Positions 12,438 to 32,094 of a DNA stretch of 64,000 nucleotides are shown here, in pieces. Under the pieces are notes generated by a model. The model saw only the letters and a program-made list of their open reading frames with translations, had not been told where the DNA came from and searched no databases. This DNA is from Microthrixaceae bacterium (lineage in GTDB: Bacteria; Actinomycetota; Acidimicrobiia; Acidimicrobiales; Microtrichaceae): NCBI GenBank assembly GCA_023957975.1, contig JAMLGM010000007.1, forward strand, positions 124,001-188,000, read 5' to 3'. How positions within the stretch are numbered: the first letter of the stretch is position 1; every line of letters starts with the position of its first letter. The position numbers and the translations under genes were made by a program.

Positions 12438-12465
12438 CCAGCGCCCCGCACCCCGCACCCCGCTC

Positions 12466-12515
12466 GTTCTCCGATAACCAGTGGTCGTGATCACGACCAC
12501 TGGTTATCGGAGAAC
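12466..12515. terminator. 50-bp perfect palindrome, copy 1
   Basis: Each 25-nt arm is fully complementary with no loop; the arm begins GTTCTCCGATAACCAGTGG and the centre is GTGATCAC. It lies between a plus-strand and a minus-strand gene end. The same element recurs at 27336-27389 and 32045-32094, also between converging genes. The likely role is a bidirectional terminator or insulator, inferred from position. A cruciform-forming or protein-binding REP-like site is the alternative. Confidence 0.75.
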
Positions 12516-12567
12516 AGGCTGGGCCGCGGCAGGCTGGGCCGCGGCAGGCTGGGCGGCGGCAGGCGGG
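12516..12567. repeat. 15-bp tandem repeat
   Basis: AGGCTGGGCCGCGGC repeated twice exactly (12516-12545), then once with a single change (12546-12560) and a partial fourth unit, directly after the palindrome. Confidence 0.8.
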
Positions 12568-26066: not shown

Positions 26067-27362
26067 GTGCTCGGTGAACCACTGAACCCCACACGCACCG
26101 CCGTGGTCGCCCTCGGTGCCGTCAGCGCCTGCACCGTCGCGGTGGCCGTGCTCGGATTCGGCACCTCCGCACCGCTGGCGATCGTCCTTCTGTTTGCCTC
26201 CGCGCTGGGTGCTTCGGTGAGCGCTGTCACCCACTTCGGCCTCGTGCGTCCGTTGGTCACCGACCTCGCTTCCTCTCGAACCGCGCATCAGGGCACCCAG
26301 CAGCGCCTTGAGGTGGCGACGACACGACGCGCCTTTCTCGAACAGCTCGACCTGGCGATCGACCGGGCCGAAACCGAAGACGAGGCCGTCGAAGTCATCG
26401 GTCGGGCGCTGAGTTCGTTCCTGCCCGAACGCGACAACGCGGTGCTGTTGGCGCCGCCGACCGGATCCCGTGTCACCTGGTCGATCGCTGCCCTCGAAGA
26501 CGGCCTCGACGTGCCGGTGATCTTCGACGAACCGCACGCCTGCGGCGCCCTCGCGAACCGGGTCTCGGTTCGAGCGTCGTCGAGCGACAACCCCGACGCG
26601 TGCGCCCACCTCATCAGCCACGGCTGGGAGGTCTCCTCGCTGTGCGTGCCCATCCTCGTCGGCGCCCGGCACCTCGGCGTGGCACATTCCGGCGGCCCGG
26701 CAGGCGACCTTCCCGACGACGAGGCGATTCGCCTGATCGAGGTGGTCTGTCGACGGGTCGGCCACCACATCTCCGCGATGCGTTCCGCCCGCACGCTGCA
26801 CGATGCCTCCCCCCGCGACGAGGTCACGCATCTGCCGAAATCCGAGCGACTGTCCGGCGACCTTCACCGCCTGCGGTCCACCGACACCGGGTTTGCCCTC
26901 GCGCTGTGCGACCTCGACGAATTCCGTCACTACAACGATTGCCACGGCGCGGACCTCGGCGACCGGGCGCTTCGGACGTTCGCCGAGGTGCTGACCCGCA
27001 CCCTTCGCCCGAGCGACATCATCGCTCGCTACGACGACGACCGTTTCGTGTGTCTCTTTCCGTCAACCTCCGCGCAACACGCGGTCGCGGCGATGGAACG
27101 GGTGCGGGAATCGTTGGTCCTTCACCTTGCGTTGGGCGAGGTCGCACCGTTTCGTGCGTCGGTGGGAATCGTCGGCTCCGAAGAGGCCACGACCCCCGAA
27201 GCGCTCCTCGAACTCGCCGAGATGGCGATCGACCTCGCCAAGGCGAACGGCGGCAACCGCGTCGTCGTGTCCGGGGTCACCCCGCCGTCGGTGTCCAGCC
27301 CTTCGCCCGCCGCCAGCCCGTCACCAACCGCCAGCCCGTTCTCCGATAATGAGTGGTCGTGA
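26067..27362 (+). CDS. Membrane protein with degenerate GGDEF domain
   Basis: 431 aa. Two N-terminal membrane segments (about 11-29 and 33-55), a coiled stretch, a GAF-like sensor region (about 95-235) and a GGDEF-like domain (about 245-405). CDLDEFRHYNDCHGADLGDRALRT matches the metal/nucleotide part, but the active-site loop is YDDDR (322-326) instead of GGDEF. It is unlikely to make c-di-GMP; it could bind nucleotide or act as a regulator. The last residues PFSDNEWS and the stop codon are read from the 54-bp palindrome, so the C-terminus was created by that element. Confidence 0.85.
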   Translation: MLGEPLNPTRTAVVALGAVSACTVAVAVLGFGTSAPLAIVLLFASALGASVSAVTHFGLVRPLVTDLASSRTAHQGTQQRLEVATTRRAFLEQLDLAIDRAETEDEAVEVIGRALSSFLPERDNAVLLAPPTGSRVTWSIAALEDGLDVPVIFDEPHACGALANRVSVRASSSDNPDACAHLISHGWEVSSLCVPILVGARHLGVAHSGGPAGDLPDDEAIRLIEVVCRRVGHHISAMRSARTLHDASPRDEVTHLPKSERLSGDLHRLRSTDTGFALALCDLDEFRHYNDCHGADLGDRALRTFAEVLTRTLRPSDIIARYDDDRFVCLFPSTSAQHAVAAMERVRESLVLHLALGEVAPFRASVGIVGSEEATTPEALLELAEMAIDLAKANGGNRVVVSGVTPPSVSSPSPAASPSPTASPFSDNEWS

Positions 27363-27389
27363 TCACGACCACTCATTATCGGAGAACGG
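27336..27389. terminator. 54-bp perfect palindrome, copy 2 (variant)
   Basis: Same element as at 12466 and 32045, but each arm reads GATAATGAGTGG where the others have GATAACCAGTGG; both arms changed together so pairing stays perfect. Flanking C-C/G-G pairs lengthen it to 54 bp. It lies at a convergent junction and provides the stop codon of the upstream gene. Confidence 0.75.
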
Positions 27390-27430: not shown

Positions 27431-28300
27431 TCAAGCGCACTCGAGGCCGTGGACCTTGCAGCGTCCGATCGCTTTGACGGGGTTCATCGACACCACCAGC
27501 CGGCGGCCGCACCGCACGCAGTACCGGTCGAGATCGAACTCGGGACCACAGGCCCCGTCGCAATCATCGGGAACCGCCTTCGCGCAGTAGCCACACAATC
27601 TCGGCGCAAGGCTCAACACCCAGTCGACGAGTTCCTCGAGGCCGGTCGCCAACACGACGTGATCCTGGTGCGCGAGCCACTGGGCATTTCGGTGGTGCAG
27701 ATCGTTCGCGTCGTCGTAGCGATTCATGAAGACCAGCACCGGAGTGTCGACCACCCCATCGGACGCACCGGCGGCGGCGGAACTGAGCGAGAGCGCCTCG
27801 TCGAGACGCGCCAGACACAGTCGTACGGCGTTGATCGTGCCGAGGCCGGCGTCCGCGACCAACAGCACGGCGTCGGGTCGAAAGGTCGCGGCCAGGTCGG
27901 CCCCATCGCCGTCCACGGCCATCGGGGAGGCAACCCCTCCCGCGAGCTCGACGATGCCAACATCGGCTGACAGGGCGCCCCACGACCCCTCGACCTCGTC
28001 GACCAACTCGTCGGTGGTCGGCGCCGTCAGGCCCAACACCGCCGCCGCCATCGGCGGGGCCATCGCGACGCTGTAGGTGCGGTTCGGCGGGCAGATCCGC
28101 TCGTGGGGTTCGCCGCTCGCCGCAGCGAGCACCTCGGAATCGGTCGGTTCGCCGGGGTTGGCCGATTGTGCCGGCTTTCGAACCTCGACGTTCCATCCGT
28201 CGGCGACCAGGCGGTCGATAACGGCGGCCGAGACAAAGGTCTTTCCGACCTCGGTCGAGGTGCCGGCGACGGCGAGCAGGCGTCGGGGGCGTGCGCTCAT
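27431..28300 (-). CDS. bioD: Dethiobiotin synthetase with C-terminal BsaP-like cysteine module
   Basis: 289 aa. P-loop GTSTEVGKT (13-21) and the BioD body (RKPAQSA, ELAGGVASPM, LLVADAGLGTINAVRL, FMNRYDD) fill about 1-232. It catalyses ATP-dependent closure of the ureido ring from DAPA and CO2. Beyond the usual end, residues about 236-289 hold eight cysteines: CGYC, C247, C251, then YCVRCGRRLVVSMNP and GRCKVHGLEC. This pattern resembles the actinobacterial biotin synthase auxiliary protein BsaP (Rv1590 type), so the protein appears to be a BioD-BsaP fusion. Follows bioF by 13 nt. Confidence 0.85.
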   Translation of the reverse strand: MSARPRRLLAVAGTSTEVGKTFVSAAVIDRLVADGWNVEVRKPAQSANPGEPTDSEVLAAASGEPHERICPPNRTYSVAMAPPMAAAVLGLTAPTTDELVDEVEGSWGALSADVGIVELAGGVASPMAVDGDGADLAATFRPDAVLLVADAGLGTINAVRLCLARLDEALSLSSAAAGASDGVVDTPVLVFMNRYDDANDLHHRNAQWLAHQDHVVLATGLEELVDWVLSLAPRLCGYCAKAVPDDCDGACGPEFDLDRYCVRCGRRLVVSMNPVKAIGRCKVHGLECA

Positions 28301-28313
28301 GGGGAATCTCCGC

Positions 28314-29537
28314 TCAGGTGGTCGGGTCGAGGCGTCGCAGGTCCGCTAACGCTTCGCGCAGCGCCTCGAGGTCCCCTGTAGCGTGCCGAGCCGAGACCGC
28401 CACCCGCAACCGCGATGACCCCTCGGGTACGGTCGGGGGCCGAATCGCGGGGACGAACATCGACCGTTCCAGCAGCTTGTCGCTCCACTCCAAGGCGCGT
28501 TCGGCCGTCCCGACGACCACCGGAACGACCGCGCTGGCCTGCGCCGGCGCCAACACGTCGACGTTGCGCCGCAGCTTGGCCGTCAGCTCGACACCCTCGG
28601 CCCCCTGCAACACCTCGAGTGCCGCCAGCGCCGCTGCGGCGACCCCGGGTGGGGTGGCGGTGCTGAAGATGAACGAGCGCGAGGTGTTGCGACACCAGTC
28701 GACCAGCGCGGTCGGCCCGGCGACGAACCCGCCGAGGCTCCCGAGCGATTTCGACAGCGTGCCGACCACCACGACCTCGGCACCGCCCCGAGACGGTGCG
28801 CTGGCGACAAGGTCGGCTCCGCAGCCGGCGAACACCGCGTGGGCGTCATCGATCACCAACAAGGCGGACGTCTCAGCCGCCAACTGCGCCAGGTCGCCCA
28901 GCGGGGCCAGATCCCCATCCATCGAAAACACCGAGTCGGTCACGATCACCGGGCGTCGGCCGGCATCGAGGTGCTCGACAACCCGCTGCCTGGCGGCCTC
29001 AGCGTCGGCGTGCGCATAGATGTTGAACGGCGCTGCGCTCAGCCGGATGCCGTCGATGATCGAGGCGTGGTTCAACTCGTCGGACACGATTCCGATCGGG
29101 GCGCCCAGCGCCGCGCCGAGCCTGGCCAACGCCACCAACACGCCGACATTCGCGGCATACCCCGTAGCGAACAGCAACGCCGCTTCGGCGTGTTTCCAAT
29201 CGGCGAGCGCCGCTTCGAGGTCGTCGTGGATCGGCCGCGACCCGACGACGAGCCGCGATGCCCCCGCCCCGGTCCCCCACCGGCGCGTCGCCGCTATCGC
29301 CGCCTCGATCACCGCGGGATGCTCGCTCAACCCGAAGTAGTCATTCGACGCGAACTGCACCACCGCACGGCCGTCGGCCAGCCTCGAGCGCACTCCGGTG
29401 TCGGCGAGGGTGCGAATAACCCGCCAGCGATCCTGTGCCCGCAACTGCTCCGCGGCCTCCCTGGCCAAGTCGCTCCACCGACTGGTCGAGGCTGCGGCAA
29501 TCGGGTGGTGAGGTTGTGCTCGCTTTTCGGGTTCCAT
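28314..29537 (-). CDS. bioF: 8-amino-7-oxononanoate synthase
   Basis: 407 aa PLP enzyme. FASNDYFGLSEHPAV, GTGAGASRLVVGSRPIHDDLE, the cofactor Asp in LLVIDDAHAVFAG and the Schiff-base Lys in VGTLSKSLGSLGGFVAG are the alpha-oxoamine synthase signatures. It condenses pimeloyl-CoA/ACP with L-alanine, the first committed step of the biotin rings. ATG at 29537. First gene of the bioF-bioD pair, divergent from bioB-bioA. Confidence 0.92.
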   Translation of the reverse strand: MEPEKRAQPHHPIAAASTSRWSDLAREAAEQLRAQDRWRVIRTLADTGVRSRLADGRAVVQFASNDYFGLSEHPAVIEAAIAATRRWGTGAGASRLVVGSRPIHDDLEAALADWKHAEAALLFATGYAANVGVLVALARLGAALGAPIGIVSDELNHASIIDGIRLSAAPFNIYAHADAEAARQRVVEHLDAGRRPVIVTDSVFSMDGDLAPLGDLAQLAAETSALLVIDDAHAVFAGCGADLVASAPSRGGAEVVVVGTLSKSLGSLGGFVAGPTALVDWCRNTSRSFIFSTATPPGVAAAALAALEVLQGAEGVELTAKLRRNVDVLAPAQASAVVPVVVGTAERALEWSDKLLERSMFVPAIRPPTVPEGSSRLRVAVSARHATGDLEALREALADLRRLDPTT

Positions 29538-29639: not shown

Positions 29640-30686
29640 GTGAGCAACACCGCGGAGACACCGACCCAGACCGCGTCCATCGAATCGGCGCCCGACGAGC
29701 TGATCCAGGCGGCGCGCGTTCGGCTGATCGACCGCGGGGGCCACCTGAGCCTCGACGAGGTTCGCGCGTTGTCCGGCCTTCCGACCTCCAAGCTCGGCGA
29801 GCTGATGGAACTCGCCCACGAGGTGCGTCTCGCCCGATGCGGCGACATGGTCGAGGTCGAGGGGATCCTGTCGGTGAAGACGGGCGGGTGTCCCGAGGAC
29901 TGCCATTTCTGCAGCCAGAGTTCGAAGTTCGACACGCCGGTCGCGGCGACCCCGTTCCTCGACACCGAAGAGGTGCTCGAGGCGGCCCGCGAAACCGCAG
30001 CGCTCGGGGCGAGCGAATTCTGCATCGTGTTGGCCGTGCGTGGCCCCGACGAAAAGACCCTGCAACGCATCCTCGAGCTCGTGCCGATCATCGGTGACGA
30101 AACCGGCCTCCAGGTCGCCGTGTCGGCCGGCATCCTCACCGAGGACCAGGCGCGACGGCTCGCCGAGGGTGGCGTGCATCGCTACAACCACAACCTCGAA
30201 ACCTCGCGGTCGTATTTCCCCAACGTCGTCACGACCCACGATTTCGACGAGCGATGGGAGACCTGCGAACTCGTCAAGCACAACAACATGGAACTGTGCT
30301 GTGGGGTGCTGCTCGGCATGGGCGAAACCGACGAGCAACGGCTCGAACTGATCGGACACCTCCAGGACCTGCAGCCGACCGAGGTGCCGGTCAACTTCTT
30401 GAACCCGCGGCCCGGCACGCCGTTGGAGCTTCGCCCGATCACTCCGGCAAAGGACGCGCTCAAGTGGGTGGCGCTGTTTCGTTTGGCGCTTCCCGAGGTC
30501 ATCCTGCGCTACGCGGGTGGGCGCGAGATCACCCTCGGCGACATGCAGGAGGCTGGCATGACGGCGGGCATCAACGCACTCATCGTCGGCAACTACCTCA
30601 CCACCCTCGGCCGGACGCCGGATCAGGATCTCGACATGCTCGATCGGCTCTCGATGCCCGTCGGCGTGCTCACCAAGGTCGTCTGA
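29640..30686 (+). CDS. bioB: Biotin synthase
   Basis: 348 aa radical SAM enzyme, GTG start at 29640 after CGGAG. The SAM [4Fe-4S] ligands are C84, C88, C91 ([12 protein letters not shown]). Of the E. coli [2Fe-2S] ligands C97, C128, C188 and R260, the counterparts are C128, C220 and R290, but the C128 position is Ala160 (GLQVAVSAG; no Cys at the next residue either). [20 protein letters not shown] matches mycobacterial-type BioB, which needs BsaP. Inserts sulfur into dethiobiotin. An N-terminal extension of about 40 residues resembles actinobacterial forms. The bioA start follows after 2 nt. Confidence 0.95.
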
Positions 30687-30688
30687 AC

Positions 30689-32011
30689 GTGGCCGCCGAG
30701 CGGTCGGCGGACCAACTCCTGGCGCTCGACCAGGCCCACGTCTGGCATCCGTACGCGGCCATGCCCGCCACGGTGCCCGCCGCATTGGTGAACTCGGCAA
30801 GCGGCGTGCGCCTACGCATCGCTTCCCCCCAGGCCGGATCGGACCCGGCGTCGACCAGCGAGGTGATCGACGCCATGAGTTCGTGGTGGGCTGCGTGTTG
30901 GGGCTACCGCCATCCGGTACTCGACGCCGCCGCGCACGCACAGATCGACTCGATGAGCCACGTCATGTTCGGCGGCCTCACCCACCGGCCGGCGATCGAA
31001 CTCGTCGAACGACTCGTCGCTCTGGCGCCGGCCGGCATCGAGCACGTGTTCCTCGCCGACTCCGGATCGGTCGCCGTCGAGGTCGCCACCAAGATGGCAT
31101 TGCAGTACTGGCACGGGCTCGGACAACCGCTGAAGCGACGCCTGCTCACCTGGCGCGGCGGATATCACGGCGACACGCTGCACCCGATGTCGGTGTGCGA
31201 CCCCGACGGGGGCATGCACGCGACGTGGACGGGGACCCTGCCCGAGCAGGTGTTTGCGGATGCCCCACCGCCAGGTTTCGCGGCGCCGCTCGAGGAGACC
31301 TACGTCGCCCACCTGCGTTCGGTGATCGAATCGCACCTCAAGGAGTTGGCGGCGATCATCATCGAACCGGTCGTTCAGGGTGCCGGCGGAATGACCTTTC
31401 ACTCCCCCGAGTACCTCCGTGTGTGGCGCGGGCTCGCGGATGAGTACGACCTGTTGTTGATCTTCGACGAGATCGCCACCGGATTCGGGCGCACGGGGGA
31501 GATTTTCGCCGCCGATCACGCCGGGGTGACGCCCGACATCATGTGTGTCGGCAAGGCGATGACGGGCGGCTATCTCACCATGGCCGCCGCGATGTGCACG
31601 CCGCGGGTGTCCGCCACGATCGCCCAGGGCGACCTGCCGGTGCTCGCCCACGGGCCGACATTCATGGGCAACCCACTCGCCGCAGCGGTGGCGAACGCGT
31701 CGATCGGTCTGCTCGACTCCACGCCGTGGCGGACCTGGGTGCCGCGCATCGAGCGCGAGTTGGTCGAGGGACTCGAGGGGTTGCGCGACCACCCGGTCGT
31801 GGCCGACGTGCGGGTGCTGGGGGCGATCGGCGTGTGTGAGTTGCGCGAGCCGGTCGACATGGCCGCCGCCACCCGCGCCGCGCTCGACTCGGGCGTGTGG
31901 CTGCGTCCGTTCGGCCGACTCGTCTACACGATGCCGCCGTACATCTCGACCACCGAGGAGGTCGCGGCCATCTGCGCGGCGATCGCCGCGGTCGCCGACA
32001 CCAACCGCTGA
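30689..32011 (+). CDS. bioA: Adenosylmethionine-8-amino-7-oxononanoate aminotransferase
   Basis: 440 aa. Class III PLP aminotransferase with the BioA hallmarks: [68 protein letters not shown], the PLP-interacting Asp in [13 protein letters not shown] and Lys in [15 protein letters not shown]. Converts KAPA to DAPA using SAM as amino donor. GTG start two bases after bioB. It ends just before the third palindrome. Confidence 0.95.
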
Positions 32012-32044: not shown

Positions 32045-32094
32045 GTTCTCCGATAACCAGTGGTCGTGATCACGACCACTGGTTATCGGAGAAC
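32045..32094. terminator. 50-bp perfect palindrome, copy 3
   Basis: Identical in sequence to copy 1 over the full 50 bp. It lies between the ends of bioA (plus) and the acyl-CoA synthetase gene (minus), whose stop codon is 3 nt away. Confidence 0.75.

Follow-up and report, generated by a model that had tools for sequence, protein, structure and literature searches.

Introduction

BsaP (Rv1590 and its homologues; PMC11099021, NF052237) is a Cys-rich protein of ~53 residues that the biotin synthase BioB is reported to need; its small gene stands on its own, downstream of bioB. A Fe–S or rubredoxin-like centre has been reported for the mycobacterial protein, with C44, C47 and C64 of BsaP.tb proposed as cluster ligands and R49, R63 and R66 proposed to dock on BioB (PMC11099021). 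Cysteine and arginine mutants of the free mycobacterial protein were unstable, and the means by which it helps BioB are left open in PMC11099021. A BioB–BsaP fusion has been published from Pseudonocardia, in which BsaP sits on the very enzyme it assists (PMC11099021), and BioD is joined to the preceding enzyme BioA in the bifunctional BioD–BioA of Arabidopsis (PDB 4a0g, 4a0r).

Here we describe a gene from a 64,000-nucleotide stretch of a Microthrixaceae genome (hereafter the window) whose product resembles both of these fusions and differs from each. As in Pseudonocardia, BsaP would be held covalently on a biotin-pathway enzyme, but on the one acting a step earlier than BioB; as in Arabidopsis, BioD is joined to another component of the pathway, but to an accessory protein for the enzyme that follows. 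No BioD–BsaP fusion was found in a literature search on BsaP, Rv1590 and BioD fusions, the coverage of which was partial. The attachment of BsaP to BioB being already known, what appears to be new is its fusion to BioD, as a trait of a whole clade.

Results and discussion

The biotin locus

According to the open reading frame list of the window, the bioD-bsaP frame runs on the minus strand from an ATG at 28300 to a stop codon at 27433–27431. The bioF gene lies directly upstream and points in the same direction (Table 1).

Table 1 Features of the biotin locus, in positions of the window
Feature	Coordinates	Strand	Remarks
bioD-bsaP fusion gene	27431..28300	(-)	289 aa; recurs in G314, G302, G310, G309 and G318
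BioD (dethiobiotin synthetase) domain	27608..28300	(-)	aa 1-231; PF13500, TIGR00347, AF2 fold
BsaP domain	27446..27595	(-)	aa 236-285; assigned from NF052237, alignments, shuffle control and AF2 of the tail
bioF (KAPA synthase)	28314..29537	(-)	ORF; start codon inferred; bioF-bioD order kept in relatives
bioB (biotin synthase)	29640..30686	(+)	single copy in the genome; BsaP-associated type
bioA	30689..32011	(+)	ORF, follows bioB; inferred start codon; G314 has a homologue at this place

The BioD part of the protein is complete. It matched PF13500 above the cut-off (E=5.1e-16) and TIGR00347 under it (E=7.3e-16; 58.7 bits, cut-off 83.3), and four BioDs from this order that have no tail likewise stayed under the TIGR00347 cut-off (51.8-66.1). 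The P-loop GTSTEVGKT and the motifs RKPAQS, VELAGG and MNR were all intact, the nucleotide-binding and catalytic motifs being nearly invariant in an alignment of 34 BioDs. An AlphaFold2 (AF2) model of the protein had a mean pLDDT of 90 overall and was confident across the BioD part, and BioD structures were the best matches when this model was used for a fold search of the PDB (3mle, E=3.8e-12).

The bioA genes of the window (30689-32011) and of G314 (L054:9255-10520) both lie downstream of bioB. They are only ~34-37% identical to the bioA of most bioA-bioF-bioD clusters in the family, which suggests a replacement of bioA in this sub-clade.

Identity of the cysteine-rich tail

The complete BioD is followed by a Cys-rich domain of ~50 residues. 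A sequence-only reading of this DNA had counted eight cysteines in the tail, picked out the motifs CGYC, YCVRCGRRLVV and GRCKVHG, and likened the tail to BsaP. All three motifs are present, the eight cysteines fall at residues 236, 239, 247, 251, 261, 264, 281 and 288, and the profile similarity to BsaP, the lack of which would have spoken against that reading, was found: the tail alone matched NF052237 (BsaP) with E=3.7e-8 and 33.3 bits over model positions 2-53 of 53, the next family trailing by seven orders of magnitude (E=0.36), and the whole protein matched NF052237 with E=1e-5. Against the curated cut-off of 39 bits for NF052237, the window copy falls short both as the whole protein (25.4 bits) and as the tail alone, whereas the orthologous fused domains of five relatives (G302, G309, G310, G314 and G318) pass, their scores in descending order being 53.6, 50.3, 50.1, 49.2 and 48.0 bits. 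The tail of the window protein is thus best assigned as a diverged BsaP by orthology rather than by its own score.

To a local profile made from the BsaPs of the order, with the window left out, the tail scored 39.7 bits. The highest score among 1000 shuffles in which all cysteines were kept fixed was 19.3 bits, which argues that the match consists of more than cysteine spacing. C261, C264 and C281 correspond to C44, C47 and C64 of BsaP.tb, with the same spacing (C-x2-C and the third cysteine 17 residues on), and are invariant in alignments of 21 and 67 rows. Mapped by distance from the cysteines, R266 and R280 would be the counterparts of R49 and R63, and V283 would occupy the position of the conserved R66. 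An AF2 model of the tail alone reached a pLDDT of 86. Searches of the PDB by sequence and by fold returned no BsaP relative for the tail and no significant fold match, so that the fold lends no independent support to its identity as a BsaP.

The partner BioB and the three states of the family

Read against E. coli BioB, the BioB of the window retains the three 4Fe–4S cysteines as well as C97, C188 and R260. It has Ala in place of C128, Glu in place of S43, R95 and S218, and Arg in place of Y149, that is, A/E/E/R/E at E. coli positions 128/43/95/149/218. The same five substitutions have been reported for mycobacterial BioBs that are associated with BsaP (PMC11099021). The tail shares with BsaP both the spacing of three cysteines and the company of this type of BioB, and differs from it in forming the C-terminal domain of BioD and in being encoded on the strand opposite bioB.

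Without exception, the genomes of the family in which BioB was read fell into three states, a pattern predicted by a functional BsaP in the tail of BioD. A BsaP-type BioB was accompanied by a free bsaP in eight genomes (G255, G292, G298 and G303-G307) and by a fused BsaP in five (the window's, G314, G318, G310 and G309); the bioB of G302 is cut off by a contig end and was left outside this count. The remaining six genomes (G140, G192, G236, G299, G308 and G313) encode a classical Cys128 BioB and showed neither a BsaP above noise nor a tail on BioD.

Five of the classical Cys128 BioBs (L167-L171, from G308, G192, G236, G299 and G140) are 35-39% identical to the BioB of the window and occur without BsaP, indicating that the type of BioB has been swapped inside one family. 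The BsaP-associated BioBs of G309 (L158) and G298 (L166) have Asn, not Ala, at the position of E. coli Cys128; the common trait is thus the loss of the cysteine ligand and not alanine itself.

Distribution and origin of the fusion

The search covered 33 genomes from the family to which the window belongs, together with samples of 397 genomes from the order and 397 from the phylum. BioD–BsaP occurs in 6/33 family genomes (the window's, G314, G302, G310, G309 and G318, the copy in G318 being truncated at a contig end), and none was found outside the family in the order and phylum samples. When the alignment of the fusions was compared with GTDB contigs, only tail-less BioDs were among the matches listed. 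Two gene orders were seen, bioF-bioD-bsaP divergent from bioB-bioA (the window and G314) and bioA-bioF-bioD-bsaP divergent from bioB (G309 and G310). Read-through matches with stops had pointed to further fusions in G109, G412 and G442, and these candidates were rejected: G412 and G442 have bioA-bioF-bioD-bioB-bsaP clusters of separate genes, and in G109 bsaP lies beside bioB.

BsaP itself was present in 107/298 genomes of the order sample. Of the 83 free BsaP loci that were read, 79 had bioB in reach, and in all 79/79 bsaP lay directly downstream of bioB on the same strand and within 200 nt, in line with the statement of the sequence-only reading that BsaP is normally a separate gene next to bioB. 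None of these 79 shared an open frame with BioB; BsaP was fused in frame to BioD only, and in the window BsaP is off its usual site, fused to bioD on the strand opposite bioB. From this arrangement, BsaP seems to have left its place beside bioB for the end of BioD. The window's genome, which is 98.8% complete, showed no separate bsaP elsewhere, a gene that would have weakened the same reading, and neither did the other five fusion genomes; several of the comparison genomes are 75-89% complete, making the absence weaker there, and only for the window's genome can the lack of a second bsaP be called firm.

The BioB tree, in which the BioBs from fusion genomes form one clade (support 99/92), supports the fusion having arisen once. 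The BioD tree was poorly resolved and needed two changes, and a single clade was not rejected (p-AU 0.21). Compared in pairs, the six fusions are on average 62% identical in the BioD core and 57% in the BsaP domain, against 24% across the junction (213-235) and 9% over the final residues, from which the domain is constrained and the joint is not. Six cysteines and a core of R, P, H and G are invariant in the tails of these six divergent genomes.

Proposed function and rival explanations

Based on these data, we propose with considerable confidence that the gene encodes a bifunctional protein, in which BioD carries a BsaP domain on which the BioB of this genome depends. A single protein would thus seem to act in two consecutive steps of the synthesis of the vitamin. 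The BioD domain would make dethiobiotin, and the BsaP domain would bind a metal via its conserved cysteines, probably as a Fe–S or rubredoxin-like centre by comparison with mycobacterial BsaP. It may then bind to the acidic face of BioB, close to the sulfur-donating [2Fe-2S] cluster, which in this class of BioB is short of one cysteine ligand, and the docked domain would allow the insertion of sulfur that converts dethiobiotin into biotin. These roles of the tail, from the binding of metal to the docking on BioB and its activation, are inferred by analogy with the mycobacterial work. More speculatively, BsaP held on BioD could place BioB where its substrate is made. It is conceivable, if rather doubtful, that BioD–BsaP goes further and forms a two-step biotin metabolon, tethering BioB, handing it dethiobiotin directly from the BioD active site and supplying the redox or sulfur helper; equally tentatively, such a metabolon would have come about by moving the accessory protein onto the upstream enzyme.

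Among other explanations, the tail might be a small zinc ribbon with no relation to BsaP, like it in cysteine spacing only and serving to stabilise or regulate BioD. In its favour are weak resemblances to zinc ribbons and to the adenylate kinase LID, by fold or profile and all non-significant. The distance of seven orders of magnitude between BsaP and the next family, the failure of Cys-fixed shuffles to exceed 19.3 bits against 39.7, the scores of the relatives' tails above the curated BsaP cut-off, and the occurrence of the tail where BioB is of the BsaP type and no free bsaP was found together make this highly improbable. We give similarly little credence to the tail being a decaying BsaP remnant without function in a clade whose BioB has become independent: the window copy does score lowest of the six and has no equivalent of R66, but the invariant cysteines and R, P, H, G core across the six genomes speak for a domain under maintenance, and BioB retains all of the BsaP-associated substitutions.

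Another possibility, unlikely in our judgement, accepts the BsaP domain and supposes that it acts as a free protein, released by an internal start or by cleavage off BioD, with the fusion serving as a co-expression device. The junction is poorly conserved, and some genomes have possible start codons in frame ahead of the domain (TTG235 and GTG228 in the window; in G314, ATG224); however, no internal start is common to all fusions, since G302 lacks one from residue 217 up to position 226, where its first tail cysteine lies, and a protease site is not known. That two genes were fused by an error of assembly or frame can be practically dismissed: the comparison genomes are mostly multi-contig drafts, but recurrence of the same in-frame joint in five other assemblies, spanning several genera and two gene orders, is a strong argument against an artefact.

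With BioD–BsaP taken as a bifunctional protein, a fusion kept by a clade means that attachment of its N-terminus to a bulky partner probably leaves BsaP functional, and fusion to the preceding enzyme restricts the ways in which it could dock on BioB. BioD–BsaP offers a naturally tethered construct for structural work. A family in which free BsaP, fused BsaP and BsaP-independent BioB occur side by side moreover provides a natural experiment on the conditions that make BsaP necessary.

Palindromes near the biotin genes

Three loopless palindromes of 50-66 nt, perfect or nearly so, were observed at 27336-27389, 32045-32094 and 12458-12523; one of them closely follows the 3' end of bioD-bsaP and another lies 3' of bioA. 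Their core consists of TCACGACCACTGGTTATCGGAGAA and its reverse complement. Across the genome, 82+83 occurrences of the 20-nt palindrome half GACCACTNRTTATCGGAGAA were counted and none of its reversed control; on these counts the palindromes are assigned to a dispersed family of ~80 copies that is REP-like or terminator-like in appearance.
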